Positions 405-63,112 of a DNA stretch of 64,000 nucleotides are shown here, piece after piece. A program made the translations under genes and the position numbers. The notes beneath the pieces were generated by a model. The model made no database searches. It worked only from the letters and a program-made list of their open reading frames with translations, and was not told where the DNA came from. The stretch is from Desulfobulbus propionicus. Its GTDB lineage: Bacteria > Desulfobacterota > Desulfobulbia > Desulfobulbales > Desulfobulbaceae. Within the stretch, counting starts at the first letter, position 1. Every line of letters starts with the position of its first letter. The stretch is taken from assembly GCA_002748755.1 (NCBI GenBank), contig PDTD01000012.1:53488-117487 (forward strand), read 5' to 3'.

Positions 405-1364
405 ATGGAACACATTCAATCTTCACCAAGCCAGGATCCAATACCATATCGTTCCGGTGTGGTTGCCATTGTTGGGCCGCCTAATGCTGGTAAGTCGACT
501 TTGCTCAACTGCTTGCTAGGACAAAAAATTTCCATTGTTTCACCCAAACCCCAGACCACCAGAAACCGGATTGCCGGGATCCTGACTGGCAAGGCATATC
601 AGATACTTCTCCTGGACACCCCAGGCCTGCATAAGGCCCAGGATCGAATGAACCAGGAAATGGTCCAGGTGGCCCTGGAAAGTGTCGACGAAGCCGATAT
701 GGTACTTTTTGTCGAGGACAGTTACGCCATGACCGACAAACGTCGGGATACAATCCTGGAGCAATACCAGGGTTATTTTGATCAAATCAATGTACCGGCC
801 GTTCTTGCCTTGAACAAGGCTGATCTGGTGGAGCAGGAGGCTCTTCTGCCGCTTACTCGGTGGTTTGTGGACCTGCATGGGTTTGCAGAAGTCCTGCCCG
901 TATCCGCACTGCACGATCAGGGAACAGAGCTGTTGGTCGACAAGATCACTGGCCTGTTACCGGAAGGCCCTCAATATTATCCTGACGATATCCCCACCGA
1001 TGCCTCGGAACGCTTCATAGTGGCGGAAATAATCCGGGAAAAAGTTTTTTTACTGACCAAGGAAGAGGTACCCTATTCCACCGCCGTGGTTATAGACTCT
1101 TTTCAGGAAACCGACTCGCATGAGCCAATCATTATTTATGCCACTATTCTGGTGGAACGAAGTTCCCAAAAAGGAATCCTGATTGGGTCTAAAGGGGCCA
1201 TGTTGGCCAAAATACGCAAACAGGCAAGCCAGGATATCGTACGCTTGCTGGGGGTCCCTGTGCGTCTGCATTTGTGGATCAAGGTGCGTAAAAACTGGAC
1301 GGGGAATGAAAGGATGCTTAGGGAACTCGGACTCACCCGAAATGCTCATGAACATCGTGTCTGA
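405..1364 (+). CDS. era: GTPase Era, ribosome assembly factor
   Basis: Era is a membrane-associated GTPase that binds the 3' end of 16S rRNA during 30S assembly. The G domain shows G1 GPPNAGKS (residues 24-31), G3 DTPGL and G4 NKAD. The C-terminal half holds the KH RNA-binding domain (GSKGAMLAKIRKQA). The length of 319 residues is slightly above the family norm because of a roughly 15-residue N-terminal extension. The ATG at 405 has no clear ribosome binding site. The last residues (AHEHRV, then TGA) lie beyond the usual Era end. They match the inward reading of the dispersed repeat's terminal inverted repeat, so the C-terminus appears to be repeat-derived. Confidence 0.95.
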   Translation: MEHIQSSPSQDPIPYRSGVVAIVGPPNAGKSTLLNCLLGQKISIVSPKPQTTRNRIAGILTGKAYQILLLDTPGLHKAQDRMNQEMVQVALESVDEADMVLFVEDSYAMTDKRRDTILEQYQGYFDQINVPAVLALNKADLVEQEALLPLTRWFVDLHGFAEVLPVSALHDQGTELLVDKITGLLPEGPQYYPDDIPTDASERFIVAEIIREKVFLLTKEEVPYSTAVVIDSFQETDSHEPIIIYATILVERSSQKGILIGSKGAMLAKIRKQASQDIVRLLGVPVRLHLWIKVRKNWTGNERMLRELGLTRNAHEHRV

Positions 1365-1626
1365 ATTAAAAAAATATATCAGAAAAGCAGCTGGTTAGAA
1401 AAGAAATACTTTGTGGTCAATTGGTCCAGAATGTGCGCCAATACTCAAGAGTGGCTACATCAGAGGCGCTCGTTTTAGTGCACGCATCCTGCTGGGATAT
1501 CGGAGTTCTCCAACAGCCACCAAAGAGGGAATATCGTGCCCGTTGCTGAGATTGCTCACGGATGGCACATTCATCTGTTTGGGATTTTTTTACCAATGAG
1601 ACAAAATGCTCCTAAAAAACGGGTTA
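1334..1626. repeat. Decayed composite copy of the TIR repeat family
   Basis: The left end overlaps the era 3' end and contains CTCATGAACAT, which is identical to the consensus inner end. It continues with degenerate matches up to TGTGCGCCAATACTCA near 1435. A second block at about 1541-1626 is in the opposite orientation. It keeps the CTCACGGATGGCACATTCAT and AATGAGACAAAATG signatures and ends CGGGTTA. The stretch is too diverged to draw exact borders. It fills the era-ctpA gap together with unremarkable sequence to 1699. Confidence 0.5.
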
Positions 1627-1699
1627 GAGTTTTTTTAAAGCAGGTCAACATCTTCATCAGCAACATACATGGGGCGCAGCAGCCTCACTACTGGCTTCT

Positions 1700-3034
1700 C
1701 TACCGGCTGCCAACAAGAGTAAGGCTTTTAATAATGAACAGGGCTGTCCGCAATTGGTTGTCCTGCGCCAACCGCCTGGCAGCGAGCGCTTGTGCTTCCT
1801 GTTCCTTATTCAATTCCAACTCTTGGGTATCATCTGACGGCCTATCATCTGCTTTTGCGTCATTGACAAAATGACCTGGCAGATCCTTTTCCTTGATGTG
1901 GTTCTCCTGCTGGTCCGTTTCCTTTTGACTTTCGGCCTTGTTGAAGGGCACCGTGAGATCGGGTTGGATGCCTGTTGCCTGGATGGAATCACCACTGGGC
2001 GTATAATACCTGGCTGTTGTCAGACGTATACCTGCCCCGCCGGGGATAGGCAGGACTGTTTGCACTGATCCTTTACCAAAGGTACTTGTTCCCAGGATAA
2101 TGGCTCTTTTATGATCCTGGAGTGCACCGGCAACAATTTCAGCACCACTGGCAGAGCCGTCGTTGACCAAAACGACCAGGGGGTATGTGTTTTCGGACCC
2201 GGTGCTGTGCGCCTCATACGTCATTTGTTCCTGGCCGTGGCGTCCTCGAGTGGAAACAAGCAGCCCCTGGTTTATGAAGATGTCGGAGATCTTGACAGCC
2301 TGATCCAATAAGCCGCCTGGATTATTACGTAGGTCCAGGACCATTCCTTGTATAGGTTTTTTTTTCTTTGCCTGGTTCAGTTGCTGGCGAAAATCACGAG
2401 TAGTGGTGGCCTGGAAATGGGAGATTCGCATGTACAGGATGCCAGGTTCCAACTCAAATGAGCGTACCGATTGGAGTGGAATGGTATCTCTTTCCAGTTC
2501 AATATCCCGCATCCCCTGCCAGGCTTTCCTATAAATGGACAGGACAACGGTTGTTCCCTTAAAGCCTCTGAGTTTTTGTACTGCTTCCATCAGTGAGAGG
2601 TTCTTAGTGATTTCCCCGTTAATGCGAATGATTTGGTCTCCAGGTTGAATACCCTTTTTTGCTGCCGGAGAGCCTTCGATGGGGGTAATGACGGTCAGAA
2701 CATTATCTCGTATGGTTATTTCCAGTCCGATACCGTTAAAGCTGCCCTGCGTCTCTTCTTGCAGATCTGCAAAGTCTTCCGAAGACATATATGCGGAGTG
2801 GGGGTCAAGGGCACTTAACATGCCTTTGATGGCTCCGGTAATGACCTCTTCTGTGTCTATCTCGTCCACATATTGTTCTTGTAGCAGGTTGAGAATGTTG
2901 GCAAATGTCTCCAACTGCTGGTAGGCGTCCCTGTTTTCAGTAGAATCATCGGCCGTAGCCGGGGTATAGGCAAACAGCGTCCAGGTGAGGACGACTAAAA
3001 GGAGTATGTAGATTTGTTTATGAAAAGAGGACAT
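1700..3034 (-). CDS. ctpA: Carboxyl-terminal processing protease, S41 family
   Basis: This is a periplasmic serine protease of the CtpA/Prc type, which trims exported or peptidoglycan-associated proteins. The chosen start (MSSFHKQ) gives a signal peptide or anchor ending near TPATA. It is followed by a PDZ domain (GIGLEITIRDN to LRGFKGT) and the S41 core, with catalytic Ser in DGSASGAEIV and Lys in FGKGSVQT. A low-complexity, charged C-terminal tail rich in E, K and Q follows. An upstream in-frame ATG at 3151 lies inside a repeat element and is unlikely to be used. The gene is the last of the ftsE-ftsX-envC-ctpA block. It is separated from envC by two repeat copies, which may uncouple its expression. 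Confidence 0.9.
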   Translation of the reverse strand: MSSFHKQIYILLLVVLTWTLFAYTPATADDSTENRDAYQQLETFANILNLLQEQYVDEIDTEEVITGAIKGMLSALDPHSAYMSSEDFADLQEETQGSFNGIGLEITIRDNVLTVITPIEGSPAAKKGIQPGDQIIRINGEITKNLSLMEAVQKLRGFKGTTVVLSIYRKAWQGMRDIELERDTIPLQSVRSFELEPGILYMRISHFQATTTRDFRQQLNQAKKKKPIQGMVLDLRNNPGGLLDQAVKISDIFINQGLLVSTRGRHGQEQMTYEAHSTGSENTYPLVVLVNDGSASGAEIVAGALQDHKRAIILGTSTFGKGSVQTVLPIPGGAGIRLTTARYYTPSGDSIQATGIQPDLTVPFNKAESQKETDQQENHIKEKDLPGHFVNDAKADDRPSDDTQELELNKEQEAQALAARRLAQDNQLRTALFIIKSLTLVGSR

Positions 3035-3117
3035 GAGACAGCCTGGAGGAAAAAGGAGCTTCATTTTCTGTCGTGGCCCGCGCCATACATTAACACTATG
3101 CTGACAGGTCCGGTCTC

Positions 3118-3341
3118 GCCTCGGATTACTCATCAGCTCAGGCGATGCCAAGTTCGGTAGTCTTTGAGTAACTCAGTATTCTTGGGTGTCTGGGTTTTAA
3201 AAAATCTGCTGAAGATGGTACCGCATGGGCTGAGTGTTGGCGCACAGTTTGTAGAAATTTGAGCCCGCTCACGGAAAAAATATCTACTTGTTTTTATGTG
3301 TTTTTCTCAAAAAAGACAATATATTCATGAGAGATCCGGGC
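3118..3341 (+). repeat. TIR repeat family, full-length copy (first of a tandem pair)
   Basis: This copy runs from CGGATTACTCATCAGC to TTCATGAGAGATCCGGGC. It has both modules: the first hairpin (CTCAGGCGATGCCA to GGTACCGCATGGGCTGAG) and the second module with TTTTTCTCAAAAAAGACAAT. It lies in the envC-ctpA gap, in the same orientation as the copy at 3503. Confidence 0.8.
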
Positions 3342-3502
3342 AGGGAGAATTGAATCGTGCACGGAGCCCTCTGCTGCGGCATCAGTACGTATACTGAAGC
3401 GGACGATTTAAAACGTAGTACAACATTTTAAAGTAACTGGAAACAGAGAGTGTGGCAATGTATTTTTTACAGGGCCTGTGTCGTGGGTTGCAAGCATGCC
3501 TC

Positions 3503-3721
3503 GCCCGGATTGCTCATCGGCTCAGGCGGTGCCAGGATGGGCAGTTTTTGGCCCTTCATTCCACTTGGGTACTGGGTTTTACAAAGACTGCCGAAGATGG
3601 TACCGCATGGGCTGAGTGTTGGTGCCCTTGTTGTTGAAATGTGAGCCCGCCCATGGACAGCACATCCATCTGTTTTGTCTCTTTTTTCTCACATGAGACA
3701 ACAAGGTCGTGGGAAATCCGT
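3503..3721 (+). repeat. TIR repeat family, full-length copy (second of a tandem pair)
   Basis: The copy begins GCCCGGATTGCTCATCGGC and ends GTGGGAAATCC. Its internal landmarks are CTCAGGCGGTGCCAG, CTGCCGAAGATGGTACCGC, GAGCCCGCCCATGGACAG and the hairpin TTTTGTCTC...GAGACAAC. It lies 31 bp downstream of the envC stop codon on the envC strand. Confidence 0.85.
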
Positions 3722-3752
3722 GTTCGTGTGGATGGTGGAACCTCCAGAAGAC

Positions 3753-4919
3753 CTATTCGGAGGAGAATGCGTCGGGACACAGCCAGGGGAGCGGGTCTTC
3801 GGCTGTGGTTCCTTTGCGTATTTCAAAATAGAGTCCCCGGCCAAAAAGGGTGGCTATGTCGCCGGTTGTGGCGATGACCTGTTCCCGCTGCACGGTGTCG
3901 CCCTGTTGCACTACAAAGTTCTCCAGTCTTGAGGTCACGGTAAAATAATTATAGCCATGGTCGATGATAATAGTCCTGCCGTAGCCTCGCATATACCCGG
4001 CAAAAATAACCTTGCCGGCTAAGACGGCATGTACCTTTGCCCCATCCCTTGTCTTGATGGTTATGCCTTGTGATACCTTTTTTTGCAAAGAATCACTGTC
4101 TTCCTTGCCGAAACGGGAAAGCAGGATACCTTTTGCAGGCGGTTGCAGCGTCCCCATGTTGCGTACAAATACTTTTTTCTTGTTTTCTTCTTTCTTTTGC
4201 AGCCTGGCAATCTGAGCGGTAAGATCCTGCTCCGCTTTCCGCATTTCTTTCAAAGCCAGTTGATAGAGACTTTTTTCTGTTTTTGCTTTTTGCAGGAGCT
4301 GGTTTTTTTGCCTGGAAATATACAGCAGGGTCTTTTTTTCCTCTTCTGCGTTATGCAGAAAACTTTCCTGTACGCTTTTTTCCAGCTCATGGGCCTGCTT
4401 GGCCTGGAGAATGGACTGTTTTCTTTTTCGATACGCGCTGAAAACAGTGCTGTCATAGGAGACTAAATGTTGAAAGGAGTCATTAAATATAAGGAGGTCC
4501 GGGATGGATGTACTGGAAAAGGCAATCCGTAAGAAACCATTGTTGCCCATGAGATAATATGCTCGCAAACGTTTTTCCAAATGGGCTTGCAGAGCTTTTT
4601 TTTCCGCATGAATGGCATCGATTTCAGCCGCCCGGCTCTCAATGAGTCTTTCCTGCTCTCTAATTTTGTCCTGGATGGCCAGAACTTTTTCCTGTTGTGC
4701 AGCTATGTTGTCATCTAACCGTTCAAGCTGGTCCAGCAGGCTGGTCTGTTTGCGATCACTGTCCTGTATTTTAGCGCTTTGATACTTCATTTCCTTGTGG
4801 AGCTTGCTGATAGTCAGCCTATGGCGCTTAATGGGCTGGGATTCCCCTGCCAGACAGTGGGAGGTTTCTGGGCAGCCAGCAAGGGTTGGTATGATAAGGA
4901 GAAGGGGTATCAGGCGCAT
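3753..4919 (-). CDS. envC: EnvC-like murein hydrolase activator, degenerate M23 domain
   Basis: EnvC-type proteins are periplasmic, recruited by FtsEX, and activate septal amidases. The start at 4919 gives a signal sequence with the lipobox-like LAGC. Two long coiled-coil stretches follow (about residues 30-110 and 150-250), then a C-terminal LytM/M23 domain. The expected metal ligands are missing: SQGITIKTRDG stands where active M23 enzymes have HxGxD. This matches non-catalytic EnvC activators. The domain ends canonically (LYFEIRKGTTAEDPLPWL). The start lies 10 bp after the ftsX stop, so translation is probably coupled. Confidence 0.88.
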   Translation of the reverse strand: MRLIPLLLIIPTLAGCPETSHCLAGESQPIKRHRLTISKLHKEMKYQSAKIQDSDRKQTSLLDQLERLDDNIAAQQEKVLAIQDKIREQERLIESRAAEIDAIHAEKKALQAHLEKRLRAYYLMGNNGFLRIAFSSTSIPDLLIFNDSFQHLVSYDSTVFSAYRKRKQSILQAKQAHELEKSVQESFLHNAEEEKKTLLYISRQKNQLLQKAKTEKSLYQLALKEMRKAEQDLTAQIARLQKKEENKKKVFVRNMGTLQPPAKGILLSRFGKEDSDSLQKKVSQGITIKTRDGAKVHAVLAGKVIFAGYMRGYGRTIIIDHGYNYFTVTSRLENFVVQQGDTVQREQVIATTGDIATLFGRGLYFEIRKGTTAEDPLPWLCPDAFSSE

Positions 4920-4929
4920 GAGGATCGAC

Positions 4930-5835
4930 TTACAGGTTGACCATTTTTCGTGTTGAAGAAAAGCTACCCAGTGAGCAGAGCAGGGTGGCAGCACAGATAA
5001 GCAGGACAACGGACTGCATGGAGAGAAAGGTGAAGGGAAAAAAACGAAACAAAGTCGCTCCGGTAAATCGCAGATCTATCCAGGAGTAGAGCAGAAAGAG
5101 AGCCCAGACTCCCAGACCTGCTCCCAGCAGCCCCTGCATTGCTCCTTCAATGAGAAAGGGGGTGCGGATATAGTTATTAGTTGCCCCCACCAGTCGAAGC
5201 AAATCCAATTCTTTTTTCCGGGCCAGTAAGGTCAAGCGAATGGTGTGTGCAACCATGAATGTCGTGGTCATAACAAGCAGGACTCCGGAAAGAACGACAA
5301 TAATGCGAATAATCTGGATGAATGAGTAGAAGCGTTCTATCCACTCCTTGCCATACTGTACCTTGAGAACGCCGGGCAGGGTCTGCAGATAATCCGAAAA
5401 GCGTTTAATTCTGGAAAGACTGTCCAGCGTTTTGAAAGGATAAATCTCTATGGAAGGCGGCAGAAAGGTTGTGGGAATATCAACGAGAATATCTTTGTCC
5501 TCTCCCAGCTGATCGCTGAATCTGTCAAAGGCCTCGGTTCTGGAGAAAAAGACAATTTTTTCCACCTGATCAAATTTGAGGATTTTTCGCCGATACTCTT
5601 CCTTGAGAGGGGGAGTCGGCTCCTCATCCAGGTAGATCACCAGCCGAAGGTCATCACCAAGTTTCTGGCTGACCTGCATGGCGTTAATATAAATGAGATA
5701 GAAGAAAGAAAAAATCAAGACCGACAGGGCGACGGTGACAAGGGTCATGAACTGGGATTTCCAGGTCAGCTGCATGTTGCGGCCTGTATGGCGCAGGGCT
5801 GTTGAAACGAGGCTCATAGTTAACTGATTGCTCAA
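4930..5835 (-). CDS. ftsX: Cell division ABC transporter-like permease FtsX
   Basis: FtsX is the membrane half of the FtsEX complex, which passes ATP-driven conformational change to a periplasmic hydrolase activator. The 301 residues show the expected topology: one N-terminal membrane helix (about 28-50), a periplasmic domain, then three C-terminal helices. The frame opens with TTG at 5835, overlapping the ftsE stop by four bases. The first ATG is at 5817 (MSLVSTALRH). Neither has a strong ribosome binding site, so the exact start is uncertain. The order ftsE-ftsX-envC supports the assignment. Confidence 0.93.
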   Translation of the reverse strand: MSNQLTMSLVSTALRHTGRNMQLTWKSQFMTLVTVALSVLIFSFFYLIYINAMQVSQKLGDDLRLVIYLDEEPTPPLKEEYRRKILKFDQVEKIVFFSRTEAFDRFSDQLGEDKDILVDIPTTFLPPSIEIYPFKTLDSLSRIKRFSDYLQTLPGVLKVQYGKEWIERFYSFIQIIRIIVVLSGVLLVMTTTFMVAHTIRLTLLARKKELDLLRLVGATNNYIRTPFLIEGAMQGLLGAGLGVWALFLLYSWIDLRFTGATLFRFFPFTFLSMQSVVLLICAATLLCSLGSFSSTRKMVNL

Positions 5836-6978: not shown

Positions 6979-7650
6979 ATGCACTACAAGGCAGTGATTT
7001 TCGATCTTGATGGGACCTTGCTCGACACACTTCAAGACCTTGCCGATGCGGCCAATCAGGCTCTGGCGGATCTGGGTTTTCCCAGGCACCCGGTCGATGC
7101 CTACCGGTTCTTTGTTGGCAGTGGCCTGAACACCCTGATTGTCCGAATACTGCCTGAGGGAAAGAGGGACGAGCAGACGCAAAGGCAGACCGTAGAGAGA
7201 TTTAAACAACGGTACAGGCAAAACTGGAAAGCGACATCTGCGCCCTATGTCGGGGTACCGGCAATGCTTGATCAGCTGCAAGCCAACGGGGTCAAGTTGT
7301 GTGTTCTTTCCAATAAACCGCATGATTATACCACCCTCTGCGTGCAGGAACTGTTGCCTCAGTGGACTTTTTTTCAGGTTCTGGGACAACGATCGGGTGT
7401 ACCGAAAAAACCTGATGCCCGGGGTGCTCTTGATATTGTCCATTGTCTGGGGCTTCAAAAAAGGGATATCCTCTATGTCGGAGACACAGCCATTGATATG
7501 CAGACAGCGGCAAATGCCCAGTTGGACAGCGTTGGCGTATTATGGGGCTTTCGCTCTGCAGAAGAGTTACAGGCGGCAGGCGCTCGGTATTTGATCAGCT
7601 CACCAGAGGAACTTGTTGGCATCGTTAAATCTGGCCCGGATTTCTGTTGA
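6979..7650 (+). CDS. gph: Phosphoglycolate phosphatase, HAD superfamily
   Basis: This HAD hydrolase dephosphorylates 2-phosphoglycolate or a similar small phosphate ester. Motif I is FDLDGTLLDT with the nucleophile Asp, motif II is LSNKP, and motifs III/IV are KKPD with YVGDTAIDM. The helical cap lies between motifs I and II. The start is the ATG at 6979, preceded by GGGGAG; an in-frame GTG lies 12 bp upstream. The last four codons and stop (P-D-F-C, TGA) are read from a repeat's terminal sequence GCCCGGATTTCTGTTGA. The native C-terminus has therefore been replaced or extended by the repeat. Confidence 0.9.
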   Translation: MHYKAVIFDLDGTLLDTLQDLADAANQALADLGFPRHPVDAYRFFVGSGLNTLIVRILPEGKRDEQTQRQTVERFKQRYRQNWKATSAPYVGVPAMLDQLQANGVKLCVLSNKPHDYTTLCVQELLPQWTFFQVLGQRSGVPKKPDARGALDIVHCLGLQKRDILYVGDTAIDMQTAANAQLDSVGVLWGFRSAEELQAAGARYLISSPEELVGIVKSGPDFC

Positions 7651-7855
7651 ACAACTTTTCTCGGTTGAAAAAAGGGAAAAAAACGGATGGGTGCGCTGTC
7701 CTTGAGCCGGTTCACATTTCGACAAATTGTACCCCAACGCTTAGGCCAGGCGGTCCCGTCTTTGGCAGTATTTTAGTAGCCCATATATCCAAGGAGAATG
7801 GGTTTATAGTAACTCCTGTACCTGGCACCACCTGAGCTGAGGAGAGTTTCGGTCT
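7634..7855 (-). repeat. TIR repeat family, full-length copy overlapping the gph 3' end
   Basis: The copy starts GCCCGGATTTCTGTTGA inside the final codons of gph. It continues through GGATGGGTGCGCTGTCC, ACATTTCGACAAATTGTACC and CAGGCGGTCCCGTCTTTGGC. It ends CTGGCACCACCTGAGCTGAGGAG...GGTCTAG. The left end is the second-module end. The rest of the gap to the DUF445 start at 8031 shows nothing recognisable. Confidence 0.8.
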
Positions 7856-8030
7856 AGATGATATGGTCGCTCCCGGATAGCATATCAAGAAAGTTGTTTC
7901 CTGGTCAAGGCGCAGGTCATACCGATGCCGACATCTCATCGAGGTATCCAGCAGCCAAGAGGCTGCGAAAAAATTGCTTGAACCCAAGCACCAAGTATCA
8001 ACCCAAAGAGTACATACATACATACAGACA

Positions 8031-9629: not shown

Positions 9630-9728
9630 CACAAGACTGATTCAGGATGGAACAGGAATAGGTAGTTGTTTTTTTTACTGATTAGCGACACCAAAAACAC
9701 GTTCTTTTGAGAAGGTTTTTCTTTATTT

Positions 9729-10625: not shown

Positions 10626-10636
10626 GTTGTAGTCTT

Positions 10637-10676
10637 GATGAGCAATCCGGGTTAGCCCGGATTGCTCATCAGCTCA
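10637..10676. repeat. Back-to-back TIR ends of the repeat family forming a perfect palindrome
   Basis: GATGAGCAATCCGGG (10637-10651) is followed, after four bases, by its exact reverse complement CCCGGATTGCTCATC (10656-10670). Repeat sequence (AGCTCAGG) continues after the second arm. It sits 12 bp after the psd stop in a convergent gap and could act as a hairpin on either strand. No T-tract follows. Confidence 0.75.
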
Positions 10677-10736
10677 GGCCCATCAGATTGCACATAGGAC
10701 GTGACGTTCTTATGTAATCTGGAAAAACAGGCGGTA

Positions 10737-16228: not shown

Positions 16229-16274
16229 GCCCGAATTTCTCATCAATTCAGTCTGCGCTAATGAGAAAACCAGG
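16229..16274. repeat. Short remnant of the repeat family, two facing ends
   Basis: GCCCGAATTTCTCATCAATTCAG is followed about 10 bases later by AATGAGAAAACCAGG. These are the two inverted ends with nearly all internal sequence lost. Confidence 0.55.
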
Positions 16275-16367
16275 TGAAATCCTCCTTCTGTACTATATAA
16301 GTACCGTATCAATATGTGATTGTCACCGGGAATTATGCAAAAGCGCTTTTCTTTGGGGGAATCTGTA

Positions 16368-16491
16368 ACCCGGGTTTGTCATCAGTTCAGGCGATGCCAG
16401 GTTCGGAAGTTTTGGGGAACCCTGCGTCTATGTGTGTCCAAAAGACTGTCGCAGATGGTGCCACTACCGCAGAGGCGGGGGGCTCATCTGT
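16368..16491 (+). repeat. Partial copy of the repeat family (first module)
   Basis: AACCCGGGTTTGTCATCAG is followed by TTCAGGCGATGCCAGGTTCGG and AAAGACTGTCGCAGATGGTGCC. The second module is absent. The right edge overlaps the 3' end of the DUF2062 gene, whose TGA stop lies at this junction. Confidence 0.7.
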
Positions 16492-17192: not shown

Positions 17193-17432
17193 TAGTCCAG
17201 ATTTCTTTACAGTTCAGGCGGTGCCAGATGGACAGTTTTTGGTAGTGAAAAGGTGAGCCAAGACTCTGATACTCCCCTCTCTTTGCTGTCAAAAGACAGC
17301 CGAAGATGGCGCCGATTGAGCTGAGCTTTGGTGCCCTTTTTTTAAGAAATTGCCCTGCAATCCTTTTTCCCCTACGTCTTATTTTGACAATTTATTATTG
17401 GCTTTTCCCAAAGCCTTCATGAGAAATCCGGC
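17193..17432 (+). repeat. TIR repeat copy whose right end encodes the RsmA C-terminus
   Basis: The left part (TAGTCCAGATTTCTTTACAG, CAGGCGGTGCCAGATGG, GACAGCCGAAGATGGCGCCG) is well conserved. The second module is diverged, but the right end TTCATGAGAAATCCGGC is nearly perfect. That end overlaps the last codons of rsmA on the opposite strand. Confidence 0.75.
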
Positions 17433-22634: not shown

Positions 22635-22784
22635 GTCTGGATTTATGATCAGCACAGAAGGTGCCGGATGAGCTGAGCTGTGGGCCACATTTAGTCGAAA
22701 GTTGAGTTTGCTCAAGGGTAGGCACCACATCCACTTGTTTTCCTTTTTTTTCCAATGAAACAAAATGTTCATGAGAAGTTGGGA
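22635..22784 (+). repeat. Internally deleted copy of the repeat family
   Basis: The left end GTCTGGATTTATGATCAGC jumps directly to GAGCTGAG and the second module (CACCACATCCACTTGTTTTCC, AATGAAACAAAATGTTCATGAGAAG). The first hairpin module has been lost, leaving about 150 bp. Confidence 0.7.
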
Positions 22785-28377: not shown

Positions 28378-29022
28378 CCGTTTTTCACGGCAGGGCACCT
28401 GAAATGATGGCTTTTTTCGCTCTATTTCGGTACCCTATCTACATAGATTTAGGCCCTCTCTTGGAGTTCAACGAACAAAGTGGACCTTGATAAGGTTTGT
28501 ATGCAGGATGCGTCATGGCTGTATCCTTTTGCAATACAGACTTGCCATCTTCGCCAGAATTGTGGCAACGTATATTACTACGTGTCAGATGGTACTAAAA
28601 ACTACCGAACTTGGCACCACCTGAACTGATGAGAAAACCGGGCGAGATCAGTATCGGTATTCTATCCATAAGGCCCACGATACACTGTAGTGGTTTGCTC
28701 TTTTCGTGTACCCAGATCTTGAAGGGAAATATACCTCAGCATTTTGTAGGTTTCCTTAAAAAAAAGTGAGCATCAGCCCCAAAGCACCCAAAAGGGGTAA
28801 GAAGAGAGGCCCATAAGGGCTTACAGATACACCTCTCTATAAGAGAACACCAGTGCCCAAGCAAAAGGGGGGGGATAGCTACCAACTCTAAACATAACTC
28901 TACATATGTACCAACCGTTTGCACCACCAAACAGGTGCAAACATGGTGGTTTTAGCCCAGCGAGTAGTGAAAGAGGAACACGAAGACAATAGAGCTTGAA
29001 AACGCAGAGAGTACATTGGTAT
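28378..29022. other. Gene-free region between HU and the tRNA-Pro fragment
   Basis: The region contains one partial repeat copy at 28541-28644. The rest, including a G-run near 28866, shows no convincing gene. A 64-residue open frame at 28736-28930 on the leftward strand has no recognisable features. Confidence 0.5.
28541..28644 (-). repeat. Partial copy of the repeat family (first module)
   Basis: CTTGCCATCTTCGCCAG is followed by CTACCGAACTTGGCACCACC and TGAACTGATGAGAAAACCGGGC. This is the first hairpin module in reverse orientation, with a good outer end. Confidence 0.7.
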
Positions 29023-29061
29023 CGGGAAGTGGCTCAGTCTGGTAGAGCACAGCGTTCGGGA
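29023..29061 (+). other. Duplicated 5' part of tRNA-Pro (attachment-site remnant)
   Basis: These 39 bases are identical to the first 39 bases of the intact tRNA-Pro(CGG) gene at 31035. They run from the acceptor stem to the end of the anticodon loop, and identity stops abruptly at 29062. This is not a functional tRNA. It marks the left border of the 2-kb island. Confidence 0.85.
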
Positions 29062-31008: not shown

Positions 31009-31034
31009 TAAAAAGCGTGTAATATTAAGTTGTT

Positions 31035-31111
31035 CGGGAAGTGGCTCAGTCTGGTAGAGCACAGCGTTCGGGACGCTGGGGTCGGAGGTTCAAATCCTCT
31101 CTTCCCGACCA
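31035..31111 (+). tRNA. tRNA-Pro (anticodon CGG)
   Basis: The cloverleaf is complete: acceptor stem CGGGAAG/CTTCCCG, D-arm GGCTCAGTCTGGTAGAGC, anticodon stem CAGCG/CGCTG around loop TTCGGGA, T-arm GGAGGTTCAAATCCTC and an encoded CCA (31109-31111). Anticodon CGG followed by G37 fits proline. A possible -10 box TAATAT (31020-31025) lies 9 bp upstream, inside the integrated element; the -35 is poor. Confidence 0.95.
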
Positions 31112-35140: not shown

Positions 35141-35247
35141 AGCCAGGATTTTTCATGAATATTTTGTCTCATTTAAGAAAGAAGCGATAAAACAGATGGA
35201 TGTGATCTCCGTTGGCAGATTCAATTATACAACTGCAAACAAAGAGT
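35141..35247 (-). repeat. Partial copy of the repeat family (second module)
   Basis: GCCAGGATTTTTCATGAATATTT is followed by TGTCTCATTTAAGAAAG, AAACAGATGGATGTGATC and AACAAAGAGTGTT. Only the second module remains, in reverse orientation, between thiD and the DUF808 gene. Confidence 0.7.
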
Positions 35248-36210: not shown

Positions 36211-36288
36211 GTCACAGCTAAACATTTTTGGCAACAGTACCAGAGGGGTAGGGGTGAAGCGGAGTACACCGCGCAGATGTGGTGTCTA

Positions 36289-36511
36289 GCCCGGATTTCT
36301 CATCAACTCAGGTGGTGCCAGATTCGGGAGTTTTTGATACCTCGTTATACGTGGGTATAGGCGGGGTCAAAAGCCTGCCGAAGATGGTACCACCTGGATT
36401 GAGTGTTGGTGCACCTTTTGTCGCAACCTGAGCCTGCTCACGAACAGTACATCCACCTGTTTTTGTTTCTTTTTTCTTAAAAAAGACAAAATGTTTACGA
36501 GAAATGCGGAC
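36289..36511 (+). repeat. TIR repeat family, full-length reference copy
   Basis: This is one of the cleanest copies, 223 bp. It begins (CTA)GCCCGGATTTCTCATCAAC and ends TTTACGAGAAATGCGG. First hairpin module: CTCAGGTGGTGCCAG...CTGCCGAAGATGGTACCACC. Second module: GAGCCTGCTCACGAACAG, ACATCCACCTG and TTTCTTTTTTC...AAAAGACAAAATG. It lies between the convergent DUF808 and oadB genes. Confidence 0.85.
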
Positions 36512-48350: not shown

Positions 48351-48714
48351 ACTCTTTCTATCCCTCTCGCCCAATAGACCGGTACGGTCTGCAATCATTC
48401 TTGTGGCATTCCCATGGTAGAGAATGCATTGACTCCAGTGCCCTGAATCTGGTACGGATTCAGGATGGTGTGGAGGCTGCATGCTCTCAAAGAGATTTTC
48501 CGGAGGCTTGTTTGTATGTCTCTTTTCCCAAATAAGGCAAATTATTCAAGAGAGAACCGGGTGGCAAAGACGGAACAAAGCTATCCCCCCTGTACGGCCT
48601 AACCATGCAACCATAAAAAGCGAACGTGACAGTATAAGACAAATATTTACGATTGCAACAGCAATCGATATTCGATACAGAGGAAAGTCTGTTTGCCTGG
48701 CAAGAGAGGACAAG
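48351..48714. other. Divergent control region between lysC and trmL
   Basis: The gap should contain both promoters. Open frames extend upstream from both genes but lack similarity. I see no repeat copy, T-box or riboswitch. Confidence 0.45.
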
Positions 48715-50443: not shown

Positions 50444-50564
50444 ACCGTGTGCGGGGGGGATCAGGTTCGCTCTTGTGAGAGCGCTCAAATCCAGCATAGG
50501 TGGCGCCATCTTGAGCAATGTTGTGACAGGAAAGAGAGGGTACTATCGGGGTACCCGCTTTCCT

Positions 50565-50790
50565 GGTCTGGATTGCTCATCAGCCCAGGTGGCGTCAGGT
50601 TTGGTACTTTTTAGTGACCCATTTTACTTGGGGTTATATGTTGCCAAAATACGGTGGTAGATGGTACTGCCTGGGCTGACTTTGGGGGAACAGTTTGGGG
50701 AAATCTGAGCCCCTCATCAAGAGCACACCCAATTTTTTTTAAGCTATTTTTTCTTAAACACGACAAATTATCCCTAAAACATCTGGGCTA
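50565..50790 (+). repeat. TIR repeat family, full-length copy
   Basis: The copy runs from GTCTGGATTGCTCATCAGC to AAAACATCTGGGCTA. Landmarks are CCAGGTGGCGTCAGG, TAGATGGTACTGCCTGGGCTGA and AAATCTGAGCCCCTCATCAA. CTAG stands at the right border (50788-50791). Confidence 0.75.
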
Positions 50791-50800
50791 GGCACTGTAA

Positions 50801-50854
50801 GTAGGTGCAACCGTTGAATCTGGCACCGCCTGAGCTAATGAGCAATCCAGGCTA
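50801..50854 (-). repeat. Partial copy of the repeat family, adjoining the radical SAM gene
   Basis: CTGGCACCGCCTGAGC and TAATGAGCAATCCAGGCTA form one arm and the outer end of the first module. It ends five bases before the ATG at 50859. The repeat therefore makes up the whole 5' leader next to that start. Confidence 0.7.
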
Positions 50855-52792: not shown

Positions 52793-52818
52793 ACTGTCCC
52801 CCCTTTCTCCTGAATCCG

Positions 52819-54034: not shown

Positions 54035-54314
54035 ACTGATACTCTCCGCCTATCGTTCCTGGTAACAGTTCAATATAGTTATATGGCATGAGTGACCAAG
54101 GCGTCAACGTGTGAACGCTAAAAAACAACACGCCATCATGGCCAACATTGATGGAGTCGGGGTGCCTGTAAACGCTTCCTATTGTGGTTGCAAGCTTTTT
54201 CAACAGCAGGCGGTCCTTTTTCCAAGCCGGGATTAACTACCACGGATTAATTATTATTCCAAGAAATAGATGAATGCCACGCCTTTTCTATATCAAGCTT
54301 CGCTCTCTTCTCAA

Positions 54315-54529
54315 TCCCGGGTTTCTCGTGACCATTTTGTCTTGTTTGAAAAAAATATATAAAAACAGATGGATGTGATGTTCGTGAGTGGGCTCTTCTT
54401 TCGAATAACTGTGCACAAAACTCAGGTACCATCTTCAGTTATATTTGGGCAGCACAGAGAACCAAGTAGAATGGGTTACCAAAAACTCCCGAACCTGGCA
54501 TCACTTGAGCTGATGAGCAAACCGAGGTA
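54315..54529 (-). repeat. TIR repeat family, full-length copy
   Basis: The copy starts CCCGGGTTTCTCGTGACC. It continues with TTTTGTCTTGTTTG, AAACAGATGGATGTGATG, GGTACCATCTTCAG and CCGAACCTGGCATCAC, and ends TGATGAGCAAACCGAGG. It ends 6 bp from the ppk1 stop. The rest of the gap upstream to 54035 shows nothing recognisable. Confidence 0.8.
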
Positions 54530-54534
54530 ACACC

Positions 54535-56748: not shown

Positions 56749-56965
56749 GTTTCTGTCCGCCATATTGGTGTCATGTTCAGCAAGGTTCAAGGCCGCACGA
56801 AAGTTCTCGCCTTGAGGGAAGTGGTCGAACTTCTCCTCTTTGCATACAACAATGGTTTGCTGCACATTCTCCCGGAGGTCCTCTCGGTGGCCCTGCCCTC
56901 GTTAAAGCACCTCTGGCAATCAGCGGCGCCAAGTCGCCTGTTGCAGACCATCCTACCGTGTCCGC

Positions 56966-57160
56966 TTACTCCGGCTCTGCATGCGTCTTTTTGTCCCCGC
57001 CCGGTTCTTCTTCGTCTTCCAGAATATAGCCCAGACCGAAGCAGGCAGGGCACTCTTCCCTGGTGATAAAAAAACGACTCTCACCCTGAAAATACCCTAT
57101 CTCGCCCGAACCTCCGCAGCTAGGACAGACATTTTTTGTGTTCTCTGCTTTGGGGACCAT
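56966..57160 (-). CDS. Small DnaJ-like zinc-finger protein
   Basis: The 64-residue product carries two zinc motifs, CPSCGGSGEIGYF and CPACFGLGY, similar to the CxxCxGxG repeats of DnaJ's central domain. An acidic tail follows. There is no J-domain. It starts 2 bp after the folD stop and is surely co-transcribed. It may be a redox or folding accessory protein, but its role is unknown. Confidence 0.75.
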   Translation of the reverse strand: MVPKAENTKNVCPSCGGSGEIGYFQGESRFFITREECPACFGLGYILEDEEEPGGDKKTHAEPE

Positions 57161-57162
57161 TG

Positions 57163-58050: not shown

Positions 58051-58210
58051 ACTATCCTTGTCTCACTATTGCAGTGTTTTCTCATACGGTCTGACAACAC
58101 CCATCTATAAAAAGTTGCCCCTACAGGCCTGCTATAGCCAGAAACGGTACTGCTCCACATCTGAAACACTGTGTGCACATTCACAGGCTGTGCAGCTATG
58201 TGTGTTATGG

Positions 58211-60676
58211 TTACCAGCGACCTGAGGATGCTTTCTGAAGCAGGGCCTGCAGGGCGGTCTGGCGCAAGGATGTGTCCTGATTACGCACGGCCATGGCAAA
58301 AGCCTTTCGGGTACCGACCAGGACAACCAATTTTTTGCCCCGGGTAAGACCAGTATACAACAAATTACGAAAGAGCATTGTAAAATGCTGGGAAACGACT
58401 GGAATAATAACAGCATCAAATTCCGATCCCTGCGATTTATGGACGGTTATGGCATAGGCCAGTTCCAATTCACTGAGATGCTCCTTGTTGTAGGTAACCT
58501 TTCGATTCTCCGGCAGAAAAGACACCGTGCAAGTCAAATCATAGGAATTGATGGCGGTAATCCGACCAATATCACCGTTGAATACATTGAGATCATAATT
58601 GTTGCGCCGATGAATAACCCGGTCGCCCACCCGAAAGATACGCTCCCCTAAGGTCAACTCCGCTTTGTTCTTTTGGGCGGGATTCACTTTTTCCTGCAGG
58701 GTTTTATTCAGGTTTGCCGTACCCAGTCCGCCACGGATCATGGGGGCCAGCACCTGGATCTCGGTTTCTGGTCCCAAATATTTCGGCACCCATTGTGTAT
58801 AAAGATTATGGATCACATCCAAAGCCGTCAATCCAAAATAGAGAGAAGACCAGGGATGTATTTTTTTACTCATCACCATAAGCTGCTCTGTGGCAGTCTC
58901 CGCCGCTGCCAGGGCTGTCAGATCTACATGGGCATATTTTTCTGGTATAAAGGGATAGCTTTGGTCCAGCGCCTGTTTTCCTTCGACAGGGGGCTCATAG
59001 AGGGGGGAATCATACAATTCTTCACGCTGTTCTATGGTACTGGAATGCCGTTTAATCCTGTCAATAAACCTCATCTGTTCTTTGGTTGCTTCATCAGAAT
59101 CAATGAAAAAACAGTCGAGGTCCCGCCATATCCCCGGTTCCTTGAAAGGCGATTTGAGCCTGGGGGCTGCTCCGGCATTAATGCTGTGGGCAGCCTGGAT
59201 AATGGCCGACTGGGAGGCCTGACGAAAGATGGTATGCAAGTGGTAGCAAGGGATGACACCAGACTGAATGCAATCTTTCAAAACATTTCCCGCCCCCACT
59301 GAAGGCAGCTGGTCCGGGTCGCCGATAAACAACAGAGCTGTTTCAGGGGCAATTCCCCGTAAAAGTGATGCGCTCAGCGATATATCAAGCATGGAACATT
59401 CATCGACAATGATAAAATCAGCCTGCAGAGGGTTTTCTTCACAACGTTGAAATCGTGTTCCCTGAAACTCTAGCAACCGGTGAATGGTTTTTGCCTCCAT
59501 ACCGATCACCTCGCCCATGCGTTGCGCTGCCCGTCCGGTCGGGGCAGCCAGAAGAACCTTGAGGTTCATGGCCTGCAGTAAAGCCACAAGGACCTTGGTC
59601 GTTGTGGTCTTGCCGCAGCCGGGTCCGCCGGTTAAAATTGAGAAGCCCTGGTTGACAATGGCGCAAACAGCTTCCTGTTGTTCTCTGCTGAGCTGCAAAT
59701 GAATTGTTGCACAGTAACGCTCCACCCACCCATGTATCCGTTGGCTGTTGTTTTGCCGGTTACCGACCTGACTATGGAGCCGTTTTGCCACATATGATTC
59801 ATCATAATATAATGATTTTGCGTAATAACAGGTAATCAGTTCCTGATTGTCTCCGGTAGGGAGTACCCGGGTACAGAGTTGAGACGCACGCTCCATCTGC
59901 TGTAACTGATCGGGAATACTCTCTGCTATGGATAGGGAGAGCAATCCATTCACCTGCTCGATTATCTGGGACTGGTTTAAATAACAGTGTCCCGACTCCC
60001 TCGCCGCAGACAAAACATGACGAATTCCGGCGCTTATACGCATGGGAGAATTGTCGGCAAACCCCATGGAGAGCGCAACTTTATCTGCTGTAAAAAAGCC
60101 TATGCCATAGAAATCTTCTGCCAACCGGTAGGGGTTTTCCGCCACCATGGATATGGCCTTGTCTCCATACTGTTGATAAATACGAACAGCGAACAAGGTC
60201 GAAATGCCATGGGATTGGAGAAACATCATGACGTCACGCACAGCCCGATGCTCCATCCAGGAATGCTTGATGGTATTCAATTTTTTATAGGCAATGCCTG
60301 GGACTTCAAGTAACCCGTCTATATGTTCTTCAAATACTGTTAAGGTTTGCTCACCAAAGTGGCGGACAATTTTTTGCGCTGTTTTGGGCCCCACTCCGCG
60401 AATCAGTCCAGAACCAAGATATTTTTCCAGTGCAGCGGCTGTGGCTGGTTTGAGTTCCGTGGCATAGTGCGCCTTGAATTGTTTACCATACTTCTTGTGT
60501 GTGGTCCAATGGCCGACAAATTCCATGGTCGCTCCGGCAAAAACCTTGGTCTGGTGTACAGTGACTGTCACCAAATCTCGATACCCATCAAAAGAAGAAA
60601 CCTTGAGAACAGACCAGCCATTGGTCTCGTTGAAAAACGTGACCCGCTCGACTATGCCGCGAATTGTTTCTCGCAT
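58211..60676 (-). CDS. recD2: RecD2-type ATP-dependent DNA helicase
   Basis: RecD2 is a 5'-3' superfamily 1 helicase acting without RecBC. The N-terminal OB/HhH region (RGVGPKTAQKIVRHFG) is followed by Walker A GGPGCGKTTTTK, Walker B VDECSMLD and GDPDQLPSVGAGNVL. The C-terminal motif VI is AITVHKSQGSEFDAVIIP. An insertion between the two RecA-like domains (about 90 residues, DRIKRHSSTIEQREELYDSP and on) looks longer than usual. The ATG at 60676 is preferred over a GTG seven codons upstream. Confidence 0.92.
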   Translation of the reverse strand: MRETIRGIVERVTFFNETNGWSVLKVSSFDGYRDLVTVTVHQTKVFAGATMEFVGHWTTHKKYGKQFKAHYATELKPATAAALEKYLGSGLIRGVGPKTAQKIVRHFGEQTLTVFEEHIDGLLEVPGIAYKKLNTIKHSWMEHRAVRDVMMFLQSHGISTLFAVRIYQQYGDKAISMVAENPYRLAEDFYGIGFFTADKVALSMGFADNSPMRISAGIRHVLSAARESGHCYLNQSQIIEQVNGLLSLSIAESIPDQLQQMERASQLCTRVLPTGDNQELITCYYAKSLYYDESYVAKRLHSQVGNRQNNSQRIHGWVERYCATIHLQLSREQQEAVCAIVNQGFSILTGGPGCGKTTTTKVLVALLQAMNLKVLLAAPTGRAAQRMGEVIGMEAKTIHRLLEFQGTRFQRCEENPLQADFIIVDECSMLDISLSASLLRGIAPETALLFIGDPDQLPSVGAGNVLKDCIQSGVIPCYHLHTIFRQASQSAIIQAAHSINAGAAPRLKSPFKEPGIWRDLDCFFIDSDEATKEQMRFIDRIKRHSSTIEQREELYDSPLYEPPVEGKQALDQSYPFIPEKYAHVDLTALAAAETATEQLMVMSKKIHPWSSLYFGLTALDVIHNLYTQWVPKYLGPETEIQVLAPMIRGGLGTANLNKTLQEKVNPAQKNKAELTLGERIFRVGDRVIHRRNNYDLNVFNGDIGRITAINSYDLTCTVSFLPENRKVTYNKEHLSELELAYAITVHKSQGSEFDAVIIPVVSQHFTMLFRNLLYTGLTRGKKLVVLVGTRKAFAMAVRNQDTSLRQTALQALLQKASSGRW

Positions 60677-61009
60677 GCTCTTTTGCACATTTCCCACCAG
60701 ATCAAAAAGAGTGTTGTCGTCGATCCCAATCCATGGTATACTACACTATTTTGCCCACAATGGGCAACACACAAGCCGGTCTCGAACCATGACAGTCAGG
60801 GGGACGCATAGTTCTGGATGAACACGGTTGGCTTGGATATCTGTTTGCTCCAATGAAAAAAACTATTGACGGGCATGCGGATTCACAGCCAATGGTAGAT
60901 GCTGTAGCTGTTCATGTCAAACGGCCTCCCTCACGGAGTGAAGAACACTTTTTATCAAGAATGCAATACCAGCGGTGCAGGCTGTTTCTTGCTGTACAGG
61001 ATCAGAAGT
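60677..61009. other. Intergenic region between recD2 and the SleB-like gene
   Basis: No repeat copy or RNA gene is seen. Several short frames run into the downstream gene but show no similarity. Confidence 0.4.
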
Positions 61010-61402
61010 ATGAGTTTTTTAGAAGGATTGTTATGGCTCACCCTCAACATTTACCATGAGGCGAGAGGTGAGCCTGAAATAGGTCAGTTAGCAGTTGCCC
61101 ATGTAACTTTGAACAGGGCCATATCAACACATACCTCTGTCGGCGCGGTGGTTACCGCCCCTTACCAGTTCAGCTGGACTTTTCAGAAAAAATCCTACTT
61201 CCCCGCAGAATATGACGCCTTACTACAGAGTGCTCATGTAGCGCTCAAGGCACTCATCACCGCAGATTTTACTAAAGGGGCTACATTCTACCATCGTACA
61301 GACGTGCATCCACCCTGGGCAGCGGACATGGAGTTTATCGCCAGGTACGGGGCCCATCTTTTCTATCGTCAAAATACGGATATCGCCCACACTGCCTTGT
61401 GA
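61010..61402 (+). CDS. SleB-like cell wall hydrolase
   Basis: The 130-residue protein matches the Hydrolase_2/SleB family. It has NIYHEARGEPEIGQLAVAHVTLNR, with the catalytic Glu in the HEARGE motif, then YQFSW and a later GATFYHRTDVHPPWA. Such enzymes cleave peptidoglycan glycan strands. The short N-terminus (SFLEGLLWLTL) is not a clear signal peptide. It could be cytoplasmic or need another start: an in-frame ATG at 60914 adds 32 unlikely residues. Function is inferred from the family. Confidence 0.82.
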   Translation: MSFLEGLLWLTLNIYHEARGEPEIGQLAVAHVTLNRAISTHTSVGAVVTAPYQFSWTFQKKSYFPAEYDALLQSAHVALKALITADFTKGATFYHRTDVHPPWAADMEFIARYGAHLFYRQNTDIAHTAL

Positions 61403-61471
61403 TACAGAGAGGGGCAGGATGAGGCCCAAGGCAGTCGTCTTTGGGTGCTATCCTTTCCTGCCTTATACGTC

Positions 61472-61590
61472 AGCCCCGGATTCGTCATCAATATGTTGTC
61501 TCATTTGAGAAAAAACACCTAAAAATATATGGATGTGGTGCCCGTGAGCGGTCTTAATTTGTAACAAAAGTCCATGAAAAATCCGGGCTG
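61472..61590 (-). repeat. Half-length copy of the repeat family with both ends
   Basis: GCCCCGGATTCGTCATCA opens the copy. It keeps TGTTGTCTCATTTGAG, TATATGGATGTGGTGCCC and GTGAGCGG, and ends CATGAAAAATCCGGGC. The first hairpin module is missing. About 120 bp are bounded by two inverted ends. It lies in the SleB-MFS gap, which otherwise shows nothing. Confidence 0.75.
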
Positions 61591-61720
61591 CCTTCTCTGG
61601 ATGCTATCATCCCTAAAACAATCACCTTGGCCTTTTCTCCCTCTGAACAATATGTTATGAACAGGGAGGCTGTGGCAAGCACAGATTCAAAGGAAAAAAA
61701 GCCTACAGAATAGACGTTGT

Positions 61721-62923
61721 ATGCAAAGCGAAACGCTGATTAAAACGGGCAGCAGAGAGTATAACAAGGCTAACCTGGCCCTTTTTTTGGCCGGGTTTGT
61801 GACCTTTGTGACCTTATACGATTTTCAACCCCTGTTTCCCAGCCTTGTGGACGAATACAACATTTCCCCGGCAACGGCAAGCCTGACCCTTTCCTGTGCT
61901 ACCTTTTCCCTGGCATGCACCCTACCCTTGTCCGGTTCTCTGTCTGATGCTGTCGGGCGCAAGATTTTGATGAGTATCGCCGTGGTTTGTGCTCCGGCGC
62001 TGACACTGGCAAGCACCATGATCAATTCCCTGCATATCCTGCTGCTGATGCGGTTGGGCCAGGGTATAATCCTGGCTGGTGTTCCGGCGGTGGCTATGGC
62101 CTATCTCCGAGATGAGTTTGAACCGCGCGCGCTTGGCAGCACTATGGGATTATATATTGCCGGGAACGCCATCGGCGGGATGAGCGGGCGTATCTTCACT
62201 GCCTGGTTGACCGATATCATGTCCTGGCGGTGGGCTCTTGTGATGCTTTCCCTGCTTTGCCTGCTGTGTGGGATTTTTTTCTGGGTGTTGCTCCCGGCAT
62301 CACGCAATTTCCGGAGTCAACCTTTTCAGCTTTCCTCGCTGACAGGCTCTTTACTCAATCATGTCTGCAATCCTGGCCTGCTCTATCTCTTTCTGATCGC
62401 TTTCGCCTGCATGGGTGGGTTTGTAACCCTGTACAACTATATCACCTTCAGGTTGCTCGGGGATGATTTTGCCCTGACTCAATCGCAGGCCGGGTTGATT
62501 TTTTTAGCCTATGCATTTGGGGCTTTCAGTTCCAGAATCATGGGCAGCCTTGTCAACCGATATGGCCGGAGCCACATTCTTTTGACATCATTGTCGATCA
62601 TGGCTGGAGGTTTGATACTGACCCTTGGCGTATCTCTGTGGATGGTTGCCAGCGGCATAGTGGTCTTTACCATCGGCTTTTTTGGCGCCCACTCTGTTGC
62701 TTCAGCCTGGGTCGGTATCCAGGCAGGACAGGCGCGCGCCCAGGCATCATCCCTGTATCTCTTTTCATACTATCTGGGATCAAGTGTTTCAGGAACAGCC
62801 GGTGGCTTTTTCTACCATCACTGGAACTGGGTTGGTATCGTTATTTTGATTGTAGGCCTGATCTTGATGGCATCAATGGCCTGCCTGCTCCTAGCCCGGG
62901 TTTCTCGGGACTATGTTGTCTGA
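61721..62923 (+). CDS. MFS transporter, drug/proton antiporter type
   Basis: The 400-residue protein has 12 predicted membrane segments and resembles the YnfM-like branch of MFS exporters. The loop 2-3 motif is GSLSDAVGRKILM, and motif C-like Gly-rich sequence is GNAIGGMSGRI. The substrate is unknown. The last nine residues (A-R-V-S-R-D-Y-V-V, then TGA) are encoded by the end of a repeat element (GCCCGGGTTTCTCGGGAC). The natural C-terminus has thus been replaced or extended. The start has only a distant purine-rich sequence. Confidence 0.9.
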   Translation: MQSETLIKTGSREYNKANLALFLAGFVTFVTLYDFQPLFPSLVDEYNISPATASLTLSCATFSLACTLPLSGSLSDAVGRKILMSIAVVCAPALTLASTMINSLHILLLMRLGQGIILAGVPAVAMAYLRDEFEPRALGSTMGLYIAGNAIGGMSGRIFTAWLTDIMSWRWALVMLSLLCLLCGIFFWVLLPASRNFRSQPFQLSSLTGSLLNHVCNPGLLYLFLIAFACMGGFVTLYNYITFRLLGDDFALTQSQAGLIFLAYAFGAFSSRIMGSLVNRYGRSHILLTSLSIMAGGLILTLGVSLWMVASGIVVFTIGFFGAHSVASAWVGIQAGQARAQASSLYLFSYYLGSSVSGTAGGFFYHHWNWVGIVILIVGLILMASMACLLLARVSRDYVV

Positions 62924-63112
62924 TGAGTGAAAAAAATAACAGGTGGCTGTGCTGTCTGTGAGGAGGATCAAATTTGGATAAACTGTGCACCAACACTCAG
63001 TTCAGGCGGTACCATCTTCGGCCTTCTTTTGCCAATACATATACCCAAGTAGAGTAGTTCCCATACACTCCCGAACCTGGTACTGCCTGAGCAGATGAAA
63101 AATCCAGGCTAG
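62892..63112 (-). repeat. TIR repeat copy closing two convergent genes
   Basis: The copy is bordered by CTAG on both sides (62892-62895 and 63109-63112). It runs from GCCCGGGTTTCTCGGGAC through AAACTGTGCACCAACACTCAG, CAGGCGGTACCATCTTCGGC and CCCGAACCTGGTACTGCC to GATGAAAAATCCAGG. Its left end encodes the MFS C-terminus. Its right CTAG supplies the TAG stop of the leftward lipoprotein gene. Confidence 0.82.

Follow-up and report, generated by a model that had tools for sequence, protein, structure and literature searches.

A family of miniature inverted-repeat transposable elements with IS1380-type ends in Desulfobulbus propionicus

We analysed a window of 64,000 nucleotides (the whole stretch of DNA under study) from Desulfobulbus propionicus (assembly GCA_002748755.1, contig PDTD01000012.1, positions 53,488 to 117,487), in which an earlier note had described a dispersed repeat of about 220 bp. 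We find that this ~223-bp repeat is a family of miniature inverted-repeat transposable elements (MITEs), abundant, mobile and without a transposase of its own, in sulfate-reducing bacteria. Very probably, the MITE was moved in trans by an IS1380-family transposase, its old copies in the source genome are decaying neutrally, and a fold of one of its hairpins, hairpin A, was kept on one strand in lineages where the element was spreading. In what follows, G000 is the source genome, other G numbers are genomes of relatives, and L numbers are sequence stretches.

The genome assembly has 2,001,158 bases and is 90.66% complete. A first search with window positions 3100-3360 as the query located at least 41 genomic sites, with 40 of 207 candidates scored, and a consensus of about 223 bp and a hidden Markov model (HMM) were built from 30 genome copies. 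After removal of overlapping self-complementary matches, the HMM search gave 18 copies in the window, in agreement with the "about 18" of the earlier note, and 113 non-redundant copies in the window plus 393,487 further bases. With the HMM rebuilt on the genome's own copies, we counted 115 in 457,487 bases, which is 25.1 per 100 kb and 4.08% of bases. The further stretches lie on four contigs with copies already known, so this density may be a slight overestimate; over 2,001,158 bases, it extrapolates to about 500 copies in the whole genome if the sample is typical. The end motif, with up to two mismatches, occurred at 199 places in the genome and the reversed motif at none, which is more than short motifs shared by chance would give. 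As the note had stated, there is no transposase gene in the repeat: the longest open stretch in the consensus is 68 codons, too short for a transposase, and the repeat is therefore not itself a member of the IS1380 family.

Ends, target duplications and IS1380 elements

The ends of the MITE, CCCGGATTTCTCATSA, adjoin 4-bp duplications of the form YTAR, and both features match IS1380-family insertion sequences found in relatives. The exact end motif with YTAR was present in 15 of 257 genomes of the order and in 9 of its 69 genera, with no occurrence of the control. Identical 4-mers flanked 9 of 53 copies in G000, where 2.4 are expected when flanks are re-paired and the highest of 2000 re-pairings reached 8. 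The corresponding counts were 7 of 8 in G003 (2.4 expected, highest re-pairing 7) and 3 of 7 in G005 (0.7 expected, highest re-pairing 3). Among relatives, the 4-bp flanks were equal on both sides in several elements (for example CTAA, TTAG or CTAG) and unequal in others.

The earlier note had suggested looking for a transposase with matching ends, and IS1380-family elements with the same ends and YTAR duplications do occur in relatives. G126 holds two 1711-bp IS1380 copies with exact ends, flanked by CTAA/CTAA and CTAG/CTAG, and G015 holds one 1714-bp element with one and two mismatches in its ends, CTAA on both sides, and an open gene of 471 aa that matches the IS1380 transposase model NF033539 at 375.7 bits (cut-off 180). 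A broken and more diverged IS1380 element with MITE-type ends lies in G136. More broadly, 11 of the 15 motif-bearing genomes held a match to the transposase family PF13701, above the cut-off in 7. We also observed that the G126 copies (L083:1372-3082 and L093:726-2436; 97% alike) each carry the transposase in two frames. The frames part at eight consecutive A residues, where slippage may occur; an inherited defect is the other possibility.

The repeat is thus short, multicopy and transposase-less, with inverted ends, target duplications and ends common to an autonomous element, as a MITE should be. IS1380-family insertion sequences (NF033539 / PF13701) have the same terminal repeats and 4-bp YTAR duplications, whereas the repeat lacks the transposase gene and no common interior was seen by eye. 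The MITE likeness proposed in the note is therefore upheld and made more precise, and we assign the repeat to the IS1380 group as a new family of MITEs. Its mobility is ordinary; its preserved strand-biased fold and a nested 17-bp unit are unusual. From the matching ends and duplications, we propose that an IS1380-family transposase acting in trans would have recognised the ends of about 16 bp and inserted the element at YTAR with duplication of the four bases.

In G000 there are four PF13701 matches, all partial and one above the cut-off, and one of them sits in a remnant of about 690 bp whose far end is the MITE (L087). Because the IS1380 matches there are only partial, we regard the G000 copies as old intergenic insertions that are decaying neutrally. 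Judging from the ends, the duplications and these partial matches, the window copies would have spread in trans and then been stranded; they resemble fossils, and the trans-acting transposase has apparently been lost from G000.

No transposase was found among the eight window proteins scanned, and Rfam gave no match on the elements in the window at gathering thresholds; at E<=1, the weak matches in stretches L073, L217 and L033 all fell outside the elements. One element of the G005 type had no match when searched against plasmids and phages. In a literature search that left subscription journals mostly uncovered, the matches listed included no MITE tied to the genus or order and no comparable IS1380 MITE.

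The fold of hairpin A between and within genomes

The element comprises an end stem and two hairpins, A and B, the second of which extends the right end; a small third hairpin often lies between them. The terminal inverted repeats and hairpins of the earlier description are real: the consensus fold contains 16 end pairs, and the ends are inverted in relatives as well. The predicted folding energy of the G000 consensus is -114.5 kcal/mol when A comes first and -91.2 kcal/mol for the opposite strand. We folded 14 elements on both strands, of which 10 carry both modules; L065 and L077 (B only), L076 (truncated) and L035 (without B) were left uncounted. In all 10 two-module elements, which represent few families, the strand with A first was the more stable, and all 10 were predicted to fold as end stem, long hairpin A and hairpin B. 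Seven of the 10 predictions also include a small hairpin that separates A from B, which in L054 has two pairs only. Left modules that appear unrelated by eye (G138/G149, L054 and L080 of G003, and L053 of G001) share a similar predicted layout. For five hairpin-A segments the energies of the two strands were -54.9/-31.3, -46.1/-30.0, -64.8/-39.7, -49.4/-40.6 and -50.5/-37.7, and DNA parameters favoured the same strand (-24.9/-16.8 and -32.8/-22.2).

We counted covariation as pairs on the stated structure in an alignment of 19 hairpin-A segments (12 genomes, 6 genera), which omits L222, all window segments except one, duplicates, the insert-bearing L239, L221 and L223, and L229. The 42 pairs comprised 672 Watson-Crick, 79 G-U, 12 A-C and 35 other cells, and the percentage paired is raised because the structure was derived from two of the aligned sequences. 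Both sides had changed in 16 of the 42 pairs, compared with 7.7 after shuffling, and double changes filled 55 cells, compared with 15.2; none of 500 shuffles reached either value, and slid controls gave at most 8 pairs and 14 cells. We conclude that, between lineages, the pairing of hairpin A is kept through compensatory, strand-biased changes.

Copies resident within one genome behaved differently from this. When a transition hits a paired position, one strand acquires G-U and its complement A-C; under neutral decay the two should therefore be about equally frequent. Derived G-U and A-C changes, with rates uncorrected, numbered 422 and 385 in G000 (p 0.21), 51 and 43 in G005 (p 0.47), and 44 and 35 in G003 (p 0.37); an earlier version of the G000 count gave 401 and 377. 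Median divergence from the genome's own consensus was 20.5% in G000 (n=64), 7.3% in G005 (n=12) and 28.8% in G003 (n=10, mixed subtypes). Copy densities were 6.0 per 100 kb in G005 and 4.2 in G003, both estimates on the high side because the stretches were partly picked around known matches. We conclude that resident copies decay neutrally and that their pairing shows no selection. The covariation check proposed in the note therefore has two outcomes, a strong signal between lineages and no selection for pairing among resident copies. In lineages where the element was still spreading, the pairing of hairpin A would have been retained with one strand favoured, and the folded strand, as read-through RNA or single-stranded DNA, may have aided the spread of copies or eased the harm of new insertions.

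Several observations weigh against this account. An intact IS1380 element with these ends was not found in the genus genomes searched (G000, G001, G003, G004 and G005), although one could lie in the unassembled part of G000 given the completeness of 90.66%, and the insertion sequences that do bear the MITE ends belong to other genera, with the transposase split over two frames in both G126 copies. Of the 53 G000 copies, just 9 retain identical duplications, and the observed counts for G005 and G003 are equalled by some re-pairings. The strand bias counted by position is G-U 24 versus A-C 10 (p 0.024), and 11 versus 2 at positions to which two or more sequences contribute (p 0.022); the cells are not independent because the 19 sequences share ancestry, and their counts may be inflated. 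Finally, as DNA energies favour the same strand, the fold does not separate RNA from single-stranded DNA.

The compensatory changes in hairpin A could instead reflect DNA-level correction between the arms of a palindrome, since copying from arm to arm of an inverted repeat also yields paired changes. We consider this unlikely. Arm correction alone gives no excess of G-U on one strand, whereas we observed 79 G-U versus 12 A-C cells (24 versus 10 positions), and resident copies show no G-U bias.

Still less probably, the repeats function as regulatory or terminator-like RNA that the host retains for its own use. Genes were placed with a simple gene caller written for this analysis. The density of G000 copies is high despite their age (25 per 100 kb at a median of 20.5% from consensus), 114 of 115 are intergenic, and 30 of the 106 copies placed in gaps lie between convergent genes, about 1.8-fold more than the 16% that non-MITE gap length predicts (p 0.0014), all of which would suit a host function. 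Yet pair-keeping changes were not favoured over pair-breaking changes within G000, G005 or G003, copies in tandem gaps tend to be oriented opposite to the genes' direction rather than along it (33 versus 19, p 0.07), and convergent gaps are perhaps where insertions are best tolerated.

Y1 elements insert without target duplications, and REP/ERIC elements are by definition without such duplications and without long ends common to another class of insertion sequence. Thus, although the copies are many, intergenic and rich in hairpins, the idea that they are REP/ERIC-like palindromes mobilised by a Y1 (HUH) transposase is highly improbable, and the REP/ERIC-like alternative of the earlier note is unneeded, because the terminal inverted repeats and target duplications match an IS1380 element.

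A nested 17-bp unit

Some MITE copies carry a 17-bp unit, GGTAAGCGNAGACTCCG, which also occurs in other repeat families across the order; stretches with the unit include L071, L164, L186, L199, L239 and L288. Outside G000, 56 of 61 segments that lack the unit have a hairpin A of 100-103 bp, and 14 of 19 with a single unit have one of 118 bp. The exceptions among the latter were four at 136 bp (L185 and L279, which contain additional inserted sequence and enter the count once per strand) and one at 115. Two units gave 134-135 bp (3 segments), three gave 152 (1) and four gave 168-169 (2). Relative to empty paralogous copies the unit is an exact small insertion, as expected of a small dispersed repeat, and, with no evident direct repeats in the printed flanks, the 17-bp steps would be gains and not losses.

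The exact unit was found in 123 of 257 genomes of the order and 41 of 69 genera, at up to 149 places, and its reversed control in none. In a sample of 395 genomes of the phylum, 5 of the 16 within the order carried it, and it was absent from all 379 sampled outside the order. We found 7 exact matches, and 6, 2 and 9 places with 1, 2 and 3 mismatches, in 382,463 bases of G003 that were chosen around MITE ends and not around the unit; shuffled units gave 0 exact matches and 0, 0.17 and 1.67 at 1, 2 and 3 mismatches. In G000 and G005, matches were not in excess over shuffled units. The unit was also carried by 17 stretches on 15 viral contigs, several with identical flanks. In 63 distinct contexts, A preceded the unit in 59, and positions further out were less uniform (C in 34 of 63 at -2, A in 38 of 63 at +1).

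As a tentative proposal, in which our confidence falls short of even, we suggest a two-tier system: a MITE that spreads as the folded form of one strand and preserves that fold while its sequence is replaced, and nested within some of its copies a mobile 17-bp unit that is confined to the order within the phylum sample, inserts after A and multiplies in tandem. Alternatively, the unit may be a protein-binding site that accumulates through recombination and is not mobile. Its presence in many unrelated contexts would be expected of such a site, and neither enzyme family that we compared could be tied to the unit. We nevertheless think this alternative rather unlikely, because hairpin A grows mostly in 17-bp steps and because the preceding base is so nearly constant relative to the outer positions.

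The enzyme comparison covered 28 chosen genomes, 14 with 19-118 units and 14 with none. As the unit's driver we rejected both Y1_Tnp, present in 13 of 14 genomes with units and 11 of 14 without, and the reverse transcriptase RVT_1, present in 10 of 14 and 12 of 14; G020, which has 118 units, lacks both. We likewise rejected a general rule by which the unit targets hairpin tips. Junction stems of 6 bp or more occurred at 3 of 61 sites, compared with 10 of 366 among controls (p 0.06 by rank test), and tip targeting was still not accepted with a mean folding energy of -11.95 at unit sites versus -10.58 in controls (p 0.013). That many units in this MITE share one tip position is probably a matter of inheritance.

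We noted two further sequences. The 17-bp unit is followed in L279 and at L208:1734 by another short motif, around aaatttccaa(a/t)tgcaggatttaggta. Hairpin A of L174 (G005) is 186 bp long with an insert of about 84 bp at its tip, part of which resembles, by eye, sequence beside the unit in L260 and L264.

The 17-bp unit was not recognisable among the literature matches listed. Cyanobacterial small dispersed repeats are reportedly tiny units of 21-27 nt, often lying within minitransposons and some with a predicted fold. By description, tiny dispersed units are common to both cases, and the unit here is 17 bp and belongs to Desulfobulbales. For the cyanobacterial repeats, Elhai et al. 2008 is cited in PMC3116915.

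Copies in relatives and in the window, and known families

The consensus matched 5 of 37 genomes including the source (G000, G003, G004, G005 and G015, the last through its 22-bp ends only), and G001, G002 and G006 of the same genus were without a match among these 37; G001 holds an element with MITE ends but a different interior. When the G126 element was the query, 29 of 249 order genomes and 12 of 69 genera matched, some through the ends only. Relatives give the clearest case for the earlier claim that the modules are separable: the 112-bp elements of G161 consist of module B only, and elements of 34 and 49 bp in G121 and G004 are scarcely more than two joined ends. We also observed, at L035:1343-1516 (G015) and similar places, a different MITE of about 175 bp between MITE-type ends, with hairpin B absent.

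A genome scan with part of hairpin A gave 40 stretches, in Desulfogranum marinum DSM 2058 and in the metagenome-assembled genomes (MAGs) DOLJORAL78_47_9 and CSMAG_517, with one of the 40 in a MAG labelled Neomarinimicrobiota. NCBI taxonomy places Desulfogranum in Desulfobulbaceae, Desulfobulbales. L185, a contig of the Candidatus Neomarinimicrobiota MAG, carries this hairpin A with one decayed 17-bp unit and an apparent second; misbinning or transfer may account for it.

In the window, the HMM recovered all eight full copies of the note, confirming that the repeat is real. By nhmmer, near full-length copies lie on the plus strand at 3120..3342 (5e-63), 3501..3724 (2.3e-60), 36287..36510 (4.1e-67; left flank CTAG, right flank altered) and 50564..50790 (9.8e-45), and on the minus strand at 7632..7856 (1.2e-48), 54314..54529 (3.6e-56) and 62891..63111 (4.3e-52; both flanks CTAG). 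The copy at 17193..17432 (plus, 1e-19) has a hairpin A of 118 bp, where most have 101-102, and inside it motif comparison identified a decayed 17-bp unit at 17252..17268 (plus), with 3 mismatches to GGTAAGCGNAGACTCCG when the centre base is left free, which accounts for the extra length of about 17 bp.

Eight of the ten partial copies that the note had listed pass E<=1e-3 (1334, 10637, 16368, 22635, 28541, 35141, 50801 and 61472), and those at 16229 (E 0.25) and 38384 (E 0.03) fail this threshold, yet end motifs are visible at both. The site at 1334 proved to be two fragments, 1333..1447 (minus, model 115-228, 8.8e-6) and 1467..1623 (plus, model 40-225, 1.4e-14), and a right end at 48505..48562 (plus, 4.3e-7) had been overlooked. 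At 10653..10679 (plus, 5.1e-4), a left end meets an inverted end across a single TTAG (pair 10640-10679). The remaining partial copies are left halves at 16366..16483 (plus, 6.1e-20) and 28543..28645 (minus, 2.7e-20), a left end at 50814..50854 (minus, 1.1e-7), a right end at 35142..35226 (minus, 7.6e-14), and right parts at 22655..22784 (plus, 3.5e-21) and 61473..61582 (minus, 4.1e-18; module B). Separately, the window contains a 40-bp exact direct repeat at 29022-29061 and 31034-31073, 2,012 bp apart, whose second copy overlaps the start of a tRNA-Pro gene (31035-31111); the two look like attachment sites of a small integrated element.

Two described MITEs resemble the present family by their published descriptions. 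The Chunjie MITE of Geobacter uraniireducens (PMC10969869) is alike, by description, in its 178-235 bp, conserved inverted ends, direct repeats, mostly intergenic position and many partial copies, and fewer copies are reported for it than for the present repeat (38 with ends plus 57 partial). The BrickBuilt MITE of Porphyromonas gingivalis (PMC4596501) is alike in having a short unit in tandem within a MITE. Its unit is 23 nt, compared with 17 bp for ours, which is absent from most copies and, unlike that of BrickBuilt, spans several repeat families and 123 of 257 genomes.

MITEs are often regarded as scarcely more than two ends. In this family the interior seems to be structurally constrained only during spread, which makes it a clean case for asking how folding of one strand benefits the passenger of a DNA transposase. 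Other MITEs could be put to the same inexpensive test, in which G-U and A-C changes are compared both within genomes and between lineages. Should the 17-bp unit indeed be mobile, it would rank among the smallest mobile DNA units known, and how so small a sequence inserts would become a tractable question.

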